A DNA stretch of 48,189 nucleotides from Bacillota bacterium (GTDB lineage: Bacteria > Bacillota > Sulfobacillia > RBS10-35 > JAJYVN01): the NCBI GenBank assembly GCA_021791815.1, contig JAJYVV010000005.1, positions 1-48,189 of the forward strand, written 5' to 3'. The notes under the pieces were generated by a model. That model did not search any database. It was not told where the DNA came from and was given only the letters and a program-made list of their open reading frames with translations. Shown piece after piece: positions 12,019 through 19,131 of this stretch; positions within the stretch are counted from its first letter, which is position 1; each line of letters begins with the position of its first letter. Position numbers and translations under genes: made by a program.

Positions 12019-13218
12019 GTGCCGCCGATGGACATGGCCCGCCTCACGCCCGCGGTCGCGGTGCACCTCTTCTATAGCGACGTCCTGTGGACCGGCTCCG
12101 GCCTGCTGGTCGCCGCCTACGTCGTCTGGATGCTGCGGAGGTTTGCCCGCCCGCGGTCGGGCGCGCGGCCGCCCGCGGCCACGCCCCGCCCGGCACCCGA
12201 CCTCGCCCGCCGGGTCCTCGTCGTCGGCCTCGGGTCGCTCTGGGTGCTGGACGGATTGCTCCAGCTCCAGCCGGGCATGGTCACCAGCTTCCTGAGCGGC
12301 GTCGTGGCGCCGCTGCTGGCCGGCCAGCCGGCGCCGGTCGCCGCCGCGATGGAGGCGGGGGTGCGCCTCTGGGGCGTCAACCCCATCGTCTGGAACGTCG
12401 TCGCGACCTACGCGCAGCTTCTCATCGGGCTGTCGATCCTGTTCGGGGCCGAGGGCGGCCTCCGGCGGGCCGGGCTGTGGGCGTCGCTTTCCTGGGGGCT
12501 CATCGTCTGGATCTTCGGCGAGGGGCTCGGCGGGCTGTTCGTGGGGGGCAGCTGGTTCACGGGTCTCCCCGGTTCGACCCTGCTCTACTCCGTGGCCACC
12601 GTCCTGCTGCTGCTGCCCCCCGAGTCCTGGCGCCGCGGCGCGTGGCTCCGGCCCCTGGCCGCCGGACTCGCGGCCTACTGGCTGCTCAGCGCGGCGCTGC
12701 AGGCCTGGCCGCCCGCCGGCTGGTGGAGCGCGACGGGCCTGCCCTCGGAGATCGGCGGCATGGCCGACATGAACCAGCCGGCGTTCTTGGCGGCATCGCT
12801 CCACGCGTTCGCCCAGGTGGTCTCCCGGGCCCCGGCGGCGTGGAACGCCGCCATGGTCCTCGGCCTCCTCGGCCTGGCCCTCGCCTGGTGGCGGTGGCCC
12901 GACAGCCCGGCGACGTGGGCGGCGACGCTGGTCTGGGAGTTCCTCGGGTGGTGGCTGGGCATGGACTTCGGCGTCCTGGGCGGTATGGGCACCGACCCGA
13001 ACAGCGGGCCCATCCTCATGCTCCTCGTCGTCGGCCAGGGCGCGGCCCGCCGGGCCCTGGCCGGCCGCAGGGCCGGGACCTGGGATGGCGCGCCCGCGCT
13101 CGCGGCGGCCTCGCCGGGGGCCGGCATGGCGCCGCCCGACATGCGGCTGGCGGATTGGGCCGGGCCCATCGTTCCGGACGACCGCGGCGGTATCGCCCAG
13201 CGAGGCGCGCGCCGGTGA
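12019..13218 (+). CDS. Polytopic membrane protein of unknown function
   Basis: A 399-residue protein with about eight or nine hydrophobic segments. These include LFYSDVLWTGSGLLVAAYVV (about 17-36), RVLVVGLGSLWVLDGLLQ, NPIVWNVVATYAQLLIGLSI, LWASLSWGLIVWIFGEGLGG, STLLYSVATVLLLLP and a late TWAATLVWEFLGWWLGMDFGV. The loops WVLDGLLQLQPG, GEGLGGLF and GTDPNSGP look conserved-family-like and remind me of uncharacterised actinobacterial membrane proteins. That is from memory; no function is known to me. GTG 12019 has GGGAGGT 7 nt upstream. The stop overlaps the next gene's start as GTGA, so it is made stoichiometrically coupled to the SCO-propeller protein and may be its membrane partner. Confidence 0.8.
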   Translation: MPPMDMARLTPAVAVHLFYSDVLWTGSGLLVAAYVVWMLRRFARPRSGARPPAATPRPAPDLARRVLVVGLGSLWVLDGLLQLQPGMVTSFLSGVVAPLLAGQPAPVAAAMEAGVRLWGVNPIVWNVVATYAQLLIGLSILFGAEGGLRRAGLWASLSWGLIVWIFGEGLGGLFVGGSWFTGLPGSTLLYSVATVLLLLPPESWRRGAWLRPLAAGLAAYWLLSAALQAWPPAGWWSATGLPSEIGGMADMNQPAFLAASLHAFAQVVSRAPAAWNAAMVLGLLGLALAWWRWPDSPATWAATLVWEFLGWWLGMDFGVLGGMGTDPNSGPILMLLVVGQGAARRALAGRRAGTWDGAPALAAASPGAGMAPPDMRLADWAGPIVPDDRGGIAQRGARR

Positions 13219-14921
13219 GGTGGAATTGGCGCTGGTCCGTGGGCGTATGCACGGGCGCGGCGGTGGTCCTGTTCACGTCGCAGTACCTGCGCCGCGCCCC
13301 GTCGGCACACCTGACCCCCCAGGCCACGGTGGCCCTCGCGGCGACGGGGATGACCCCGCTGGGCGGCGGGCCCGCGCCGAACTTCACGCTCACCGACCAG
13401 AACGGCGCCCCGGTCTCTCTGGATGCGTTCCGCGGCCGGGCCGTGATCCTGGCGTTCCTCGATCCCGTGTGCTGGTCCGAATGCCCGATGCAGGCCCAGG
13501 AGATGAAGGCCGTCGACGGCCTCCTGGGCCCGGCGCGCGCATCGCGCGTCGCGCTCGTCGCGGTGGCCGCCAACCCGATCTACCACAGCGTCACGGACGT
13601 CCTGCGCTTCACGCAACAGGAGGACCTCGCCGGCGTCGGCAACTGGACCTTCGCGACGTCGTCCTCGCTCCCCGCCCTGCAGAAGGTCTGGGCCTCCTAC
13701 TACGAGACGGTGACCGTGCCCCAGAACGACATGGTGGACCATACCCAGCTCTTCTACATCATCGGACCGGGCGGTACCCTCGACTACGTCAGCAACCCGG
13801 AGACCGAGCCGGCCTACTTCCAGGGCACGATCCAGCTCCTCGCCGCATACGTGCTGAAGGTCCTGCACGCGTCGCCCCAATTGGAGCCGACCCAGCCCGC
13901 CATGCCGGCCCCCGCCCCGTCCAACCCCATCCAGACTCCGGGGCCCGTGGCCGCCGACTTCTGGTCGCCGACCCAGGGGCTGCTCATCGTGAACGCGCCG
14001 CCGTACCAGCTCGTGTACTCGACGACGGACGGCGGGGCGACCTGGACCGACGAGGGACCGCCGGGGATCGGCAAGCAGGGGGGGCTCGCCTGGTCCTGGG
14101 GCGCCCCGGGCAGCGCGTGGATCCTCATCCGCCCCTTCTACTGGATGGCCAACACGAGCGTCGACGCCACCAGCACCGCGGGCGCCACCTGGGTGCCGCC
14201 TGCCGTGCTGGCGGGGGCCCCGCCGTCCGGCTCCACGTCCCCCGTCGCGGGCGCCGGGCCGGAACGCGCGGGGGTCCTCTCCGGCGGCCGGCTCTGGACG
14301 ACGGACGACGGCGGCCAGCACTGGAGCGCGGCGGCGGTCCTCCCCTCCGGGGTGACGGAGCCCGGGCTGGGCTGGGCCCCCTCGGGCGGGACGCCCTGGC
14401 TGGGCGGCGGCGGTGCCGCGCGCGGCACCGCCTGGCTGTGGTCGGGGCAGGGCCCGGGTTGGACGTCCGTCCGCCTGCCGGTACCCGCGGCCATGGCCGG
14501 CGCGTCGGTCGTGTCCCTCGCGCCTTCTTGGACGTCCGCCCAGGACGGTCTCGACGTGCTCGCGGGCACGCTCGGCTCCGAGACCATGGTCTGGGCCGAC
14601 ACCACGAACGACGGCGGGCGGAGCTGGACGGCGGCGCTGCCGCCCCTGGCGGCGGTGAACCCCTTCGGCGGGGGCGTCCAGGAGGCCGGCGGAGACGTGT
14701 ATGCGCTGTCGGCGCGTGGCCAGGTGGAGATCGGCGCCCCCGGGACCGGCACGTGGGCCCCGGACGGCGTCCCCGTGCCGGCGGGCGGCGTCCGGGCGCT
14801 GGATTTCCTGAGCGCCCGCCAGGGTTGGGTGATCGCCGGCGGACGGGCCGGCACCGATCTCTACCGCACCACGGACGGCGGGGCGCATTGGCAGCGGGTC
14901 GTGCTGCCGGCCGTGGGCTGA
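13215..14921 (+). CDS. Membrane-anchored SCO-like redoxin fused to an Asp-box beta-propeller
   Basis: A 568-residue exported protein starting at GTG 13215 (GTGA overlap with the previous stop). WSVGVCTGAAVVLFTSQYL is an uncleaved anchor. Residues about 55-220 are a thioredoxin-fold SCO1/SenC-type domain: FTLTDQNGAPVSL, a C-x3-C pair at Cys86 and Cys90 (DPVCWSECP) and the copper-ligand-type His176 (VDHTQLFYIIGPGG). A Pro-rich linker (about 225-245) leads to a propeller with Asp boxes TTDGGATW, TDDGGQHW, TNDGGRSW and TTDGGAHW near residues 270, 361, 463 and 551, plus a degenerate TSTAGATW. SCO proteins deliver copper to, or reduce, cytochrome oxidase CuA. The propeller is not a normal part of them. 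It may be a docking or copper-sensing module; that is inference. Confidence 0.85.
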   Translation: MRWNWRWSVGVCTGAAVVLFTSQYLRRAPSAHLTPQATVALAATGMTPLGGGPAPNFTLTDQNGAPVSLDAFRGRAVILAFLDPVCWSECPMQAQEMKAVDGLLGPARASRVALVAVAANPIYHSVTDVLRFTQQEDLAGVGNWTFATSSSLPALQKVWASYYETVTVPQNDMVDHTQLFYIIGPGGTLDYVSNPETEPAYFQGTIQLLAAYVLKVLHASPQLEPTQPAMPAPAPSNPIQTPGPVAADFWSPTQGLLIVNAPPYQLVYSTTDGGATWTDEGPPGIGKQGGLAWSWGAPGSAWILIRPFYWMANTSVDATSTAGATWVPPAVLAGAPPSGSTSPVAGAGPERAGVLSGGRLWTTDDGGQHWSAAAVLPSGVTEPGLGWAPSGGTPWLGGGGAARGTAWLWSGQGPGWTSVRLPVPAAMAGASVVSLAPSWTSAQDGLDVLAGTLGSETMVWADTTNDGGRSWTAALPPLAAVNPFGGGVQEAGGDVYALSARGQVEIGAPGTGTWAPDGVPVPAGGVRALDFLSARQGWVIAGGRAGTDLYRTTDGGAHWQRVVLPAVG

Positions 14922-16710: not shown

Positions 16711-18114
16711 TCAGGGGAAGCTGCGGCCCGGCGAGCACGCGGCGCAGGCCGCGGCAAGGCGCGCCGCGGCGGCGGGACAGCTGCCCAGGTGGAGGTGGAC
16801 GTAGCCCGCGAGCACGGAACCCCGGGCGAAGCCATCCGCGACCGGAGGCCCGCCCGCGGGCCGGCCCAGCTCCCAGGCGGGCTCCCACGCCCCGTCCCAC
16901 TCCACGCGGCTCCAGTGGAACTCATGGCCCCGGGCCAGGCCGCCGTCCGGCAGCAGCAGGTTGGGGCGCCGGGCCCGCACCTCGCGGTAGCCGAACCCCG
17001 CCGGTCCCGGCGTCATGACCGTCCTGGCCGGGATGACCCCGGCCATGGCATGGCTCCGTCCGTCCTCGTCGACCAGCTCGCGGCAGAGGTATTGGAAGCC
17101 GCCGCACTCCCCCCACACGGGGAGGCCCGCCGCGGCCGCCGCGGCGACGGCCTGGCGCGCCCCCACGTTCGCGGCGAGCCGCCCGGCGAAGCGCTCCGGG
17201 AACCCGCCGCCGAAGTACAGGCCGGCGACGCCCGCCGGCGGGGCCGGGTCGCGGAGCGGGCTCCAGGGCACGAGATCGAGGCCCTGCGCCCGGAGCAGGT
17301 CGAGGTTGTCCTCGTAATAGAAGTGGAAGGCCTCGTCGCGCGCGACCGCCAGCCGGGGGCGCGATCCGCCCGACGCCCCGCCGGGGTGGGGCCGGCCTGC
17401 CGGCCGGGGCGGATCGAGCGCGCCCGGACCCCGGGCGCGGAGGGCGCGCAGCAGGCCGTCCAGATCGACGCCTGCGGCCACGGCGCGCGCGGCGGCCGCC
17501 ACCCAATCGGCCCCCTCCGCCGCCGGACGGAGGCCCAGGTGCCTCTCGGGAACGCGGATGGCCGGGTCCGGGGCGATGCAGCCGAAGACCGGCAGGCCCG
17601 TGGCGTCCGCGACGGCCGCGCCGAGGGCCTCGGCGTACGGCCCGGGCCGCACGCGATTGACGATGAAGCCGGCGAAGGGCAGGTCGGGATCGCAGCGGCA
17701 AAGGCCCAGCGCCACGGCCCGCAGCGTCCGGCCGGCCGTGTGGCCGTCGAGGACGGCGACGACCGGGGCGCCGAGGAGGCGGGCCACGTGGGCCGTGCTC
17801 GCCTCGTCGGACCCGGGCGACATGCCGTCGAACAGGCCCATGACGCCCTCGATGACGCAGACGTCGGCCTGGGCGGCCGCGGCGGCGTACGTCGCGCGCA
17901 GGCAATCGGGCGGCACCATCCAGGAATCCAGGTTGCGACTGGGGCGGCCCGCGGCCGCCGAGTGGTGTCCGGGGTCGATGAAGTCCGGACCGACTTTGAA
18001 GGGCTGAACCCGCAGGCCCCGCGCCCGCAGGGCGCCGATCAGCCCGACGGCGGCGGTCGTCTTCCCGGCGCCGGTGCCGGCCGCCGCCACGACCACGGGC
18101 GCGGCGCCGCTCAC
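16711..18114 (-). CDS. cbiA: Cobyrinate a,c-diamide synthase
   Basis: A 467-residue ATP- and glutamine-dependent amidase of the CobB/CbiA family. It amidates the a and c acetate side chains of the corrin precursor. The N-terminal dethiobiotin-synthetase-like ATPase shows AAAGTGAGKTTAAVGL, QPFKVGPDFIDPGHH and VIEGVMGLFDG. The C-terminal class I glutamine amidotransferase shows LYFGGGFPERFA, the nucleophile Cys in WGECGGFQYL, and a late GYVHLHLGS. GTG 18114 overlaps the argF stop as GTGA, so it is translated from the argF message. No other cobalamin gene is present in the window and no cobalamin riboswitch was seen, so a related macrocycle or another acceptor cannot be excluded. Confidence 0.88.
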   Translation of the reverse strand: MSGAAPVVVAAAGTGAGKTTAAVGLIGALRARGLRVQPFKVGPDFIDPGHHSAAAGRPSRNLDSWMVPPDCLRATYAAAAAQADVCVIEGVMGLFDGMSPGSDEASTAHVARLLGAPVVAVLDGHTAGRTLRAVALGLCRCDPDLPFAGFIVNRVRPGPYAEALGAAVADATGLPVFGCIAPDPAIRVPERHLGLRPAAEGADWVAAAARAVAAGVDLDGLLRALRARGPGALDPPRPAGRPHPGGASGGSRPRLAVARDEAFHFYYEDNLDLLRAQGLDLVPWSPLRDPAPPAGVAGLYFGGGFPERFAGRLAANVGARQAVAAAAAAGLPVWGECGGFQYLCRELVDEDGRSHAMAGVIPARTVMTPGPAGFGYREVRARRPNLLLPDGGLARGHEFHWSRVEWDGAWEPAWELGRPAGGPPVADGFARGSVLAGYVHLHLGSCPAAAARLAAACAACSPGRSFP

Positions 18115-19079
18115 AGGATCGCGGCGAGGATGGCCTTCGCGGCGTGCAGGCGGTTGCCGGCCTGCTCGAACACCACCGACGCCGGACCGTCCATGACCTC
18201 GTCCGTGACCTCCTCGCCGCGGTGGGCGGGAAGGTCGTGCAGGAAGACCGCATGCGGAGCGGCCAGGGCCATGAGCGCGGCGTCCACGCGGTAGGGCTCG
18301 AGGGCGCGGCGGCGCGCGCCGGCTCCCGCCTCGAACCCCATGCTGACCCACGTGTCGGTGTAGACGGCGTCGGCACCGGCCACGGCCTCGCGCACGTCCG
18401 CCGTCACCTCGATGGATCCCCCGGTGGCGCGCGCGTCGGCGCGCGCCGCCTCCAGCACCTGCGGGTCCGGGCGGAACGCCTCCGGAGCGCCCACCCGCAG
18501 CGCGAAGCCCGCCTTGGCGGCGGCGAAGCACAGGGAGTGGCAGACGTTGTTGCCATCGCCCACGTACGCCACGCGAAGCCCGCCGAGGTGCCCGAATCGC
18601 TCGCGCAGGGTCAGCATGTCGGCCAGGGCCTGCGAGGGATGGAGCAGGTCCGTGAGCGCGTTGACGACGGGCACCGACGCGGCCGCGGCCAGCTCCTCGA
18701 TCTCGGCGTGGCCGAACGCCCGGATCACGATGGCGTCGACGAGCTGGCTCAGGACGCGGCCCGTGTCCGCCACCGTCTCCCCGCGCGCCAGCTGCATCTC
18801 GCCGCCCTGGAGGCACACCGCATGCCCCCCGAGCGCCGCGGTCGCCACCTCGAAGGACACGCGGGTGCGCGTCGACGGCTTCAGGAACAGGAGGGCGACG
18901 CTCCGTCCCGCGAGCGGGCGGGCCCCGGCGGCCGCGCCCCCCCGCTTCCAGGCCAGGGACGAGGCCACCAGGCCCTCGACCTCCGCAGGTGTGAAATCAT
19001 GCAGCGAAAGGAAGTCGCGGCCGCGCAGCGCTCCCGCCTCGGGCACCGCCGCGGTCGCGATCGCAGCCGCCGGCCGCAT
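18111..19079 (-). CDS. argF: Ornithine carbamoyltransferase
   Basis: A 322-residue OTCase that makes citrulline from ornithine and carbamoyl phosphate in arginine synthesis. Carbamoyl-phosphate motifs are PSTRTRVSFE and LLHPSQALADMLT; the ornithine-closing SMG loop is DTWVSMGFE. The usual HCLP motif reads HDLP (FLHDLPAHRGEE), a Cys-to-Asp change at a substrate-contacting position. ATG 19079 was chosen over ATG 19130 because a consensus promoter puts the transcript start at about 19125, inside the longer frame. GAAGAGGGG lies about 6 nt before ATG 19079, giving a 45-nt UTR. cbiA follows with a 4-nt overlap. Confidence 0.9.
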   Translation of the reverse strand: MRPAAAIATAAVPEAGALRGRDFLSLHDFTPAEVEGLVASSLAWKRGGAAAGARPLAGRSVALLFLKPSTRTRVSFEVATAALGGHAVCLQGGEMQLARGETVADTGRVLSQLVDAIVIRAFGHAEIEELAAAASVPVVNALTDLLHPSQALADMLTLRERFGHLGGLRVAYVGDGNNVCHSLCFAAAKAGFALRVGAPEAFRPDPQVLEAARADARATGGSIEVTADVREAVAGADAVYTDTWVSMGFEAGAGARRRALEPYRVDAALMALAAPHAVFLHDLPAHRGEEVTDEVMDGPASVVFEQAGNRLHAAKAILAAIL

Positions 19080-19131
19080 GGCCACCCCTCTTCCCGCTCC
19101 CGGATCGCCCGCCCGCGCGGAAATGTGCATA

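Follow-up and report, generated by a model that had tools for sequence, protein, structure and literature searches.

How copper is supplied to the extracytoplasmic CuA and CuB sites is understood only in part, and the factors involved differ between bacteria. In another setting, Ycf48 acts as a docking and assembly factor for a photosystem II precursor, and membrane proteins of the MauE/DoxX type accompany thioredoxin-like proteins. The CuA site of subunit II receives copper from Sco proteins or is reduced by them, and these proteins are also able to act on thiols (PMC9145763). Assembly of caa3 in Bacillus subtilis involves both Sco and Caa3_CtaG, and in B. halodurans their genes are adjacent (PMC9145763).

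The window, the whole 48,189-nucleotide stretch of Bacillota DNA that was analysed, contains two genes, P0001 and P0002, which combine known and apparently new parts. SCO, CtaG and the propeller fold are known, and the literature searched gave no description of an SCO-propeller fusion or of the P0001 family. Both open reading frames and the overlap reported in an earlier note on this DNA were confirmed by sequence.

12019 to 13218, forward strand: P0001 gene, an open reading frame with a GTG start, 399 amino acids, polytopic membrane protein
13215 to 13218, forward strand: GTGA stop/start overlap of the two genes, within ...CGCCGGTGAGGTGG...
13215 to 14921, forward strand: P0002 gene, GTG start, 568 amino acids, SCO domain plus Ycf48-like Asp-box propeller

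The overlap suggests translational coupling. We consider it rather likely that P0001 and P0002 are translationally coupled and work as a unit that assembles an extracytoplasmic copper site, most likely CuA of a caa3-type cytochrome c oxidase.

The SCO domain and propeller of P0002

P0002 is similar to Sco, SenC and YpmQ (PF02630) in its thioredoxin-like domain, CxxxCP motif, distal histidine and, plausibly, a membrane anchor. In contrast to Sco proteins, which are described as small and singly anchored (PMC9145763), P0002 adds a seven-box propeller and appears to be coupled to a polytopic partner.

13380 to 13778, forward strand: SCO1/SenC domain of P0002, residues 56-188, Pfam PF02630
13470 to 13484, forward strand: C86-x3-C90 of P0002 (DPVCWSECP), predicted copper or thiol ligands
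13740 to 13742, forward strand: H176 of P0002 (MVDH), predicted third SCO copper ligand
13905 to 14918, forward strand: Asp-box propeller of P0002, residues 231-568, from profile A4 against PDB
14022 to 14045, forward strand: Asp box TTDGGATW of P0002, strict pattern
14301 to 14324, forward strand: Asp box TDDGGQHW of P0002, strict pattern
14604 to 14627, forward strand: Asp box TNDGGRSW of P0002, strict pattern
14868 to 14891, forward strand: Asp box TTDGGAHW of P0002, strict pattern

The Pfam match of the SCO domain (E=4.7e-12, 46.5 bits against a curated cut-off of 22.8) is accompanied by matches to PDB 4hde and to the B. subtilis Sco (YpmQ) structures 1on4 and 1xzo, and C86, C90 and H176 are invariant in 7/7 full-length homologues. 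The N-terminal stretch at about residues 7-25 is moderately hydrophobic, with no 19-residue window reaching the 1.4 Kyte-Doolittle cut, and a membrane anchor in this region is plausible. Single sequences of the P0002 type match the Pfam BNR and PSII_BNR families below the curated cut-off. Profile A4, which was built from twelve propeller regions, matched the Ycf48 structures 5ojp (E=3.3e-11) and 2xbg (6.4e-11) and the HCF136 structure 5oj3 (4e-7). Strict Asp boxes of the form [ST]x[DN]xGxxW occur four times (residues 270, 363, 464 and 552), against 0.03 expected in shuffled sequences, and three degenerate boxes around W326, W416 and W514 bring the total to seven, spaced about 47 residues apart. 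The propeller is probably seven-bladed (W277, 326, 370, 416, 471, 514 and 559). From the Pfam and PDB matches, the invariant ligands, the Asp-box counts and the Ycf48 profile match, the earlier domain calls therefore hold, namely a fusion of an SCO-type domain bearing C86, C90 and H176 with a propeller of at least four Asp boxes. AlphaFold2 gave pLDDT 30.1 for P0002 (alignment of three rows) and 43.8 for P0001 (single sequence input), and because both predictions are of low confidence the blade number and exact anchor of P0002 are inferred.

The propeller is like Ycf48 and HCF136 in its Asp boxes and profile match and, by analogy, in a possible extracytoplasmic assembly role; it is unlike them in being fused to SCO, at a locus with no sign of a photosystem. 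P0002 and Ycf48 propellers probably share a fold rather than a target. No description of an SCO fusion to a Ycf48-like propeller was found in the literature searched, which is weak evidence of absence. A pattern-based genome scan returned just generic Asp-box proteins.

The membrane protein P0001 and its family

The partner of P0002 was previously described as an uncharacterised membrane protein of eight or nine spans. Searches of Pfam, NCBIfam and PDB gave no match for P0001 and none above chance level for its 29 homologues, and no description of the family was found in the literature searched.

12028 to 12036, forward strand: N-terminal MxM of P0001 (M4 and M6), predicted extracytoplasmic
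12202 to 12633, forward strand: first half of the P0001 internal repeat, residues 62-205, from hhalign
12277 to 12279, forward strand: M87 of the P0001 QPxM motif, predicted near the outer face
12634 to 13053, forward strand: second half of the P0001 internal repeat, residues 206-345, from hhalign, containing MADMNQP and GMDFGVLGGMGTDPNSG

The two halves are homologous to each other in alignment A1 of the P0001 family, which has 30 members (hhalign probability 99.2, E=2e-18). Nine spans were assigned by hand from this repeat and the positive-inside rule, whereas just six segments exceed the strict 1.4 Kyte-Doolittle cut (19-residue window), so that the span number is to be read as a hand assignment. 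The probable topology, TM1 followed by four plus four spans, puts the N-terminus on the outer side and the C-terminus on the inner; it agrees with the two types of fusion found in relatives, to SCO (G086) and to sulfocyanin-like domains (G079, G059).

Orthologues have the consensus SMAxMPQP where the window protein has MADMNQP, and GMDFGVLGGMGTDPNSG corresponds to the consensus GQDFGVLGGMGTDPNSG. In the family motif GQDFGxLGGxGTDP the window protein carries M instead of Q at position 315. M87, E168 and D326 are each conserved in 28/30 rows and, among family rows reaching the N-terminus, M6 is kept in 13/15 and M4 in 9/12. The MxM, QPxM, SMAxMPQP and GGMGTDPN motifs are predicted to lie outside or near the outer face. 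P0001 contains no cysteine and the family no conserved histidine, so any copper handling would rest on methionine, aspartate and glutamate. P0001 has the features by which the family is defined here (internal repeat, D78/M87/E168, and the SMAxMPQP and GQDFGxLGGxGTDP motifs) and, judged by these, is a member of a new membrane protein family. This family is largely restricted to one class: of 398 genomes sampled across the phylum eight matched, six of them in the class, and a plasmid search returned no P0001 relatives and one plain SCO match.

DoxX/DoxD and CtaG were both considered as relatives of P0001 and rejected. The span order is similar to that of DoxX/DoxD, with a weak collinear 'G..W..DGL.Q.QP' at the start of the first repeat, but P0001 is twice as long and has no significant profile match (hhalign probability 2.1% or less, and no Pfam match in the 30 members). 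Like Caa3_CtaG (PF09678), a polytopic partner in oxidase copper assembly, P0001 is polytopic, and a CtaG gene follows the SCO-propeller or propeller gene in three relatives; unlike CtaG it has no conserved histidine, and the two are without sequence relation (hhalign probability 0.4% or less).

Conserved methionine motifs predicted on the outer side would also suit a copper transporter or Cu(I) channel, with P0002 as its extracytoplasmic receptor and a target that need not be an oxidase. Paralogues of P0001 are numerous, up to nine per genome, and a G079 paralogue has a heavy-metal ATPase gene nearby (L104), both of which would fit such a role. We nevertheless regard it as very unlikely, given that P0001 is unrelated to any known transporter family in Pfam, NCBIfam or PDB, that its 4+4 repeat is not transporter-specific, and that several paralogues have no copper gene nearby.

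Some paralogues have other partners. In G079 and G059 a helix and a sulfocyanin-like (SoxE) domain come after the P0001 core (L103:10225-11880 and L106:9754-11439). On first impression these fusions were strong evidence for copper; they were weighted down because the fused domains are without the type-1 copper cysteine and histidine.

As a separate observation, a P0001 paralogue of the window genome lies 48 nucleotides behind a lipoprotein gene with a COX2/CuA-like loop (WQCMAACGTGESGW..M; L090:9017-10597, G000:C277), and genes for a paralogue and a lipoprotein with a CuA-like loop are likewise adjacent in G072 (L110:10200-11887).

Conserved pairing and linkage to oxidase and copper genes

A search of 154 genomes of the class found SCO-propeller genes in the window genome and in G043, G059, G079, G413, G422, G426, G427 and G405, with partial genes as two pieces in G414 and one piece at a contig edge in G012. 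The P0001/P0002 pair is kept in nine genomes of the class at 33-48% identity, and a P0001 homologue is immediately upstream of the SCO-propeller gene in 9/10 judgeable loci, the exception being G043. Four-nucleotide overlaps were present at six of the eight junctions examined, across a GC range of 48-73%: GTGA in the window and ATGA in G427, G426, G059, G413 and G079. Those in G059, G413 and G079 were read directly from the DNA. Short gaps separate the genes in G422 and G405 as called, called gene starts in relatives being approximate. This conserved pairing bears out the tie to the membrane protein that the overlap had suggested.

In G086, P0001 and SCO form one polypeptide, in the order P0001 core, basic stretch, anchor helix and SCO domain with CxxxCP and MVDH, and the propeller is encoded by the next gene. 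Where the SCO and propeller halves occur apart they are thus not unrelated genes, the separate propeller lying directly beside the membrane protein-SCO fusion. P0001-like genes also adjoin plain SCO genes in G079, G059, G426 and G002. In a maximum-likelihood tree of the P0001 family, a single clade of 16 rows (support 96/94) takes in 9/10 SCO-propeller partners together with members that have other or no known partners, and the G086 fusion sits in a neighbouring clade. Plain-SCO partners from Sulfobacillus-type genomes and third genes of the cluster make up two more clades, and the sulfocyanin fusions likewise group apart. Because plain-SCO and SCO-propeller partners fall in separate clades, the association of the membrane protein with SCO probably arose more than once.

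This conservation bears on the idea that a ligand-binding or cell-surface propeller was joined to SCO by chance, leaving an ordinary SCO chaperone and a pair without joint function. Unrelated Asp-box propeller proteins are frequent in these genomes, and the propeller (about 30% identity) is less conserved than the SCO part, as might be expected of a chance fusion. Against this, the SCO-propeller architecture is conserved in several families, the split propeller of G086 still adjoins the SCO fusion, and the overlap with P0001 is conserved; an accidental joining is accordingly thought highly improbable.

In the window the pair has neither copper nor oxidase genes next to it; its neighbours are what we take to be a serA-like gene upstream and an LmbE-like gene downstream. 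A promoter and terminator scan found nothing. Relatives are more informative. In G086 the fusion and propeller lipoprotein genes are followed by genes for a small membrane protein, Caa3_CtaG (E=3e-39), a DsbD_2 protein (E=2e-36) and a heavy-metal P-type ATPase with an HMA domain, after which a FixH/YtkA-like gene lies on the other strand. CtaG comes after the SCO-propeller gene in G413 (E=1e-40) and after the propeller end in G414 (E=3e-42), where the gene start is on a different contig. The window genome itself has two caa3-type oxidase operons elsewhere, with CtaG at two places away from the pair, and its COX2 proteins carry the CuA loop CAEFCGxSH (CxxxCGxSH) and a C-terminal CxxCH cytochrome c domain. 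The stand-alone module that the earlier note suggested from the lack of an adjacent oxidase gene is thus not supported, because Caa3_CtaG occurs at orthologous loci (E 1e-39 to 1e-42) and the genome has caa3 operons of its own. COX2 was found in 12/12 SCO-propeller genomes, a co-occurrence that discriminates little as COX2 is common.

The second SCO1-SenC match of the window genome (C258) was set aside as a TlpA-like CxxC protein without the SCO ligand set. No SCO other than P0002 is therefore recognisable in the assembly, although at 87% completeness another could be missing.

Two loci lie beside cydAB, which encodes a copper-free bd oxidase: the pair in G422 and, in G043, a P0001 homologue (L136:10807-14769 and L092:9109-13947), the SCO-propeller gene of G043 having no adjacent P0001. 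Such neighbourhoods could indicate a thiol-redox or sensing module, in which SCO would be a thiol-disulfide reductase or a PrrC/SenC-like redox sensor and P0001 would relay electrons or quinone status, on the model of the MauE/DoxX-type proteins. In many relatives SCO is fused with another thioredoxin-like domain and VKOR or CcdA-like genes lie nearby, and the capacity of SCO proteins to act on thiols (PMC9145763) points in the same direction. However, P0001 has no cysteine, its profile gives a probability of about 2% or less against DoxX and DoxD, genes for CtaG and a heavy-metal ATPase accompany the orthologous cluster, and H176 is invariant, as expected of copper binding. This explanation is on balance unlikely.

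At window positions 16711-19085, a cobyrinic acid synthase-like gene and an ornithine carbamoyltransferase-like gene are unusual neighbours that overlap by four nucleotides.

A possible copper-site assembly unit

The conserved pair probably helps to build the copper sites of respiratory oxidases. As an assembly unit for CuA, P0002 would sit anchored in the membrane, with its SCO domain binding copper, or reducing the CuA cysteines of subunit II, through C86, C90 and H176. The propeller may serve as a docking scaffold, by analogy with Ycf48 and the photosystem II precursor. P0001, with its conserved methionines and acidic residues outward-facing or buried, would tether the chaperone to the membrane, and may bind Cu(I) and present or pass it to P0002. 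Points against such a unit are the lack of copper or oxidase neighbours in the window, the cydAB neighbourhoods, the absence of cysteine and conserved histidine from P0001, the loss of ligands in the sulfocyanin fusions, and G043 without an adjacent P0001.

A broader and rather doubtful proposal is that P0001 is the founding member of a new family of conduits or insertases for copper(I) in the membrane, each paired with a particular extracytoplasmic copper protein. The partners of the paralogues would then be SCO, SCO-propeller, sulfocyanin-like and CuA-like lipoprotein clients, to which copper would be passed straight from the membrane.

As an assembly unit, P0001/P0002 would offer an SCO chaperone with a built-in propeller like that of an assembly factor and a dedicated membrane partner. 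The unit is probably also present in cultivable biomining bacteria, in which case the roles of both proteins would be directly testable.

Other features of these clusters were also observed. Sulfobacillus-type clusters also contain genes for a small membrane protein and for a further, divergent paralogue of P0001 (L134:11475-12934, L074:10706-12129, L075:8500-9935, L137:7515-8902). The small membrane protein of the G427 and G086 clusters retains a cysteine (GC-[IL]-x-PH) and has WC at its end. Proteins of about 380 amino acids combining SCO and thioredoxin-like domains are common in this class, and at L087:11536-13110 one protein has SCO and SoxE domains as well as a second thioredoxin-like domain.
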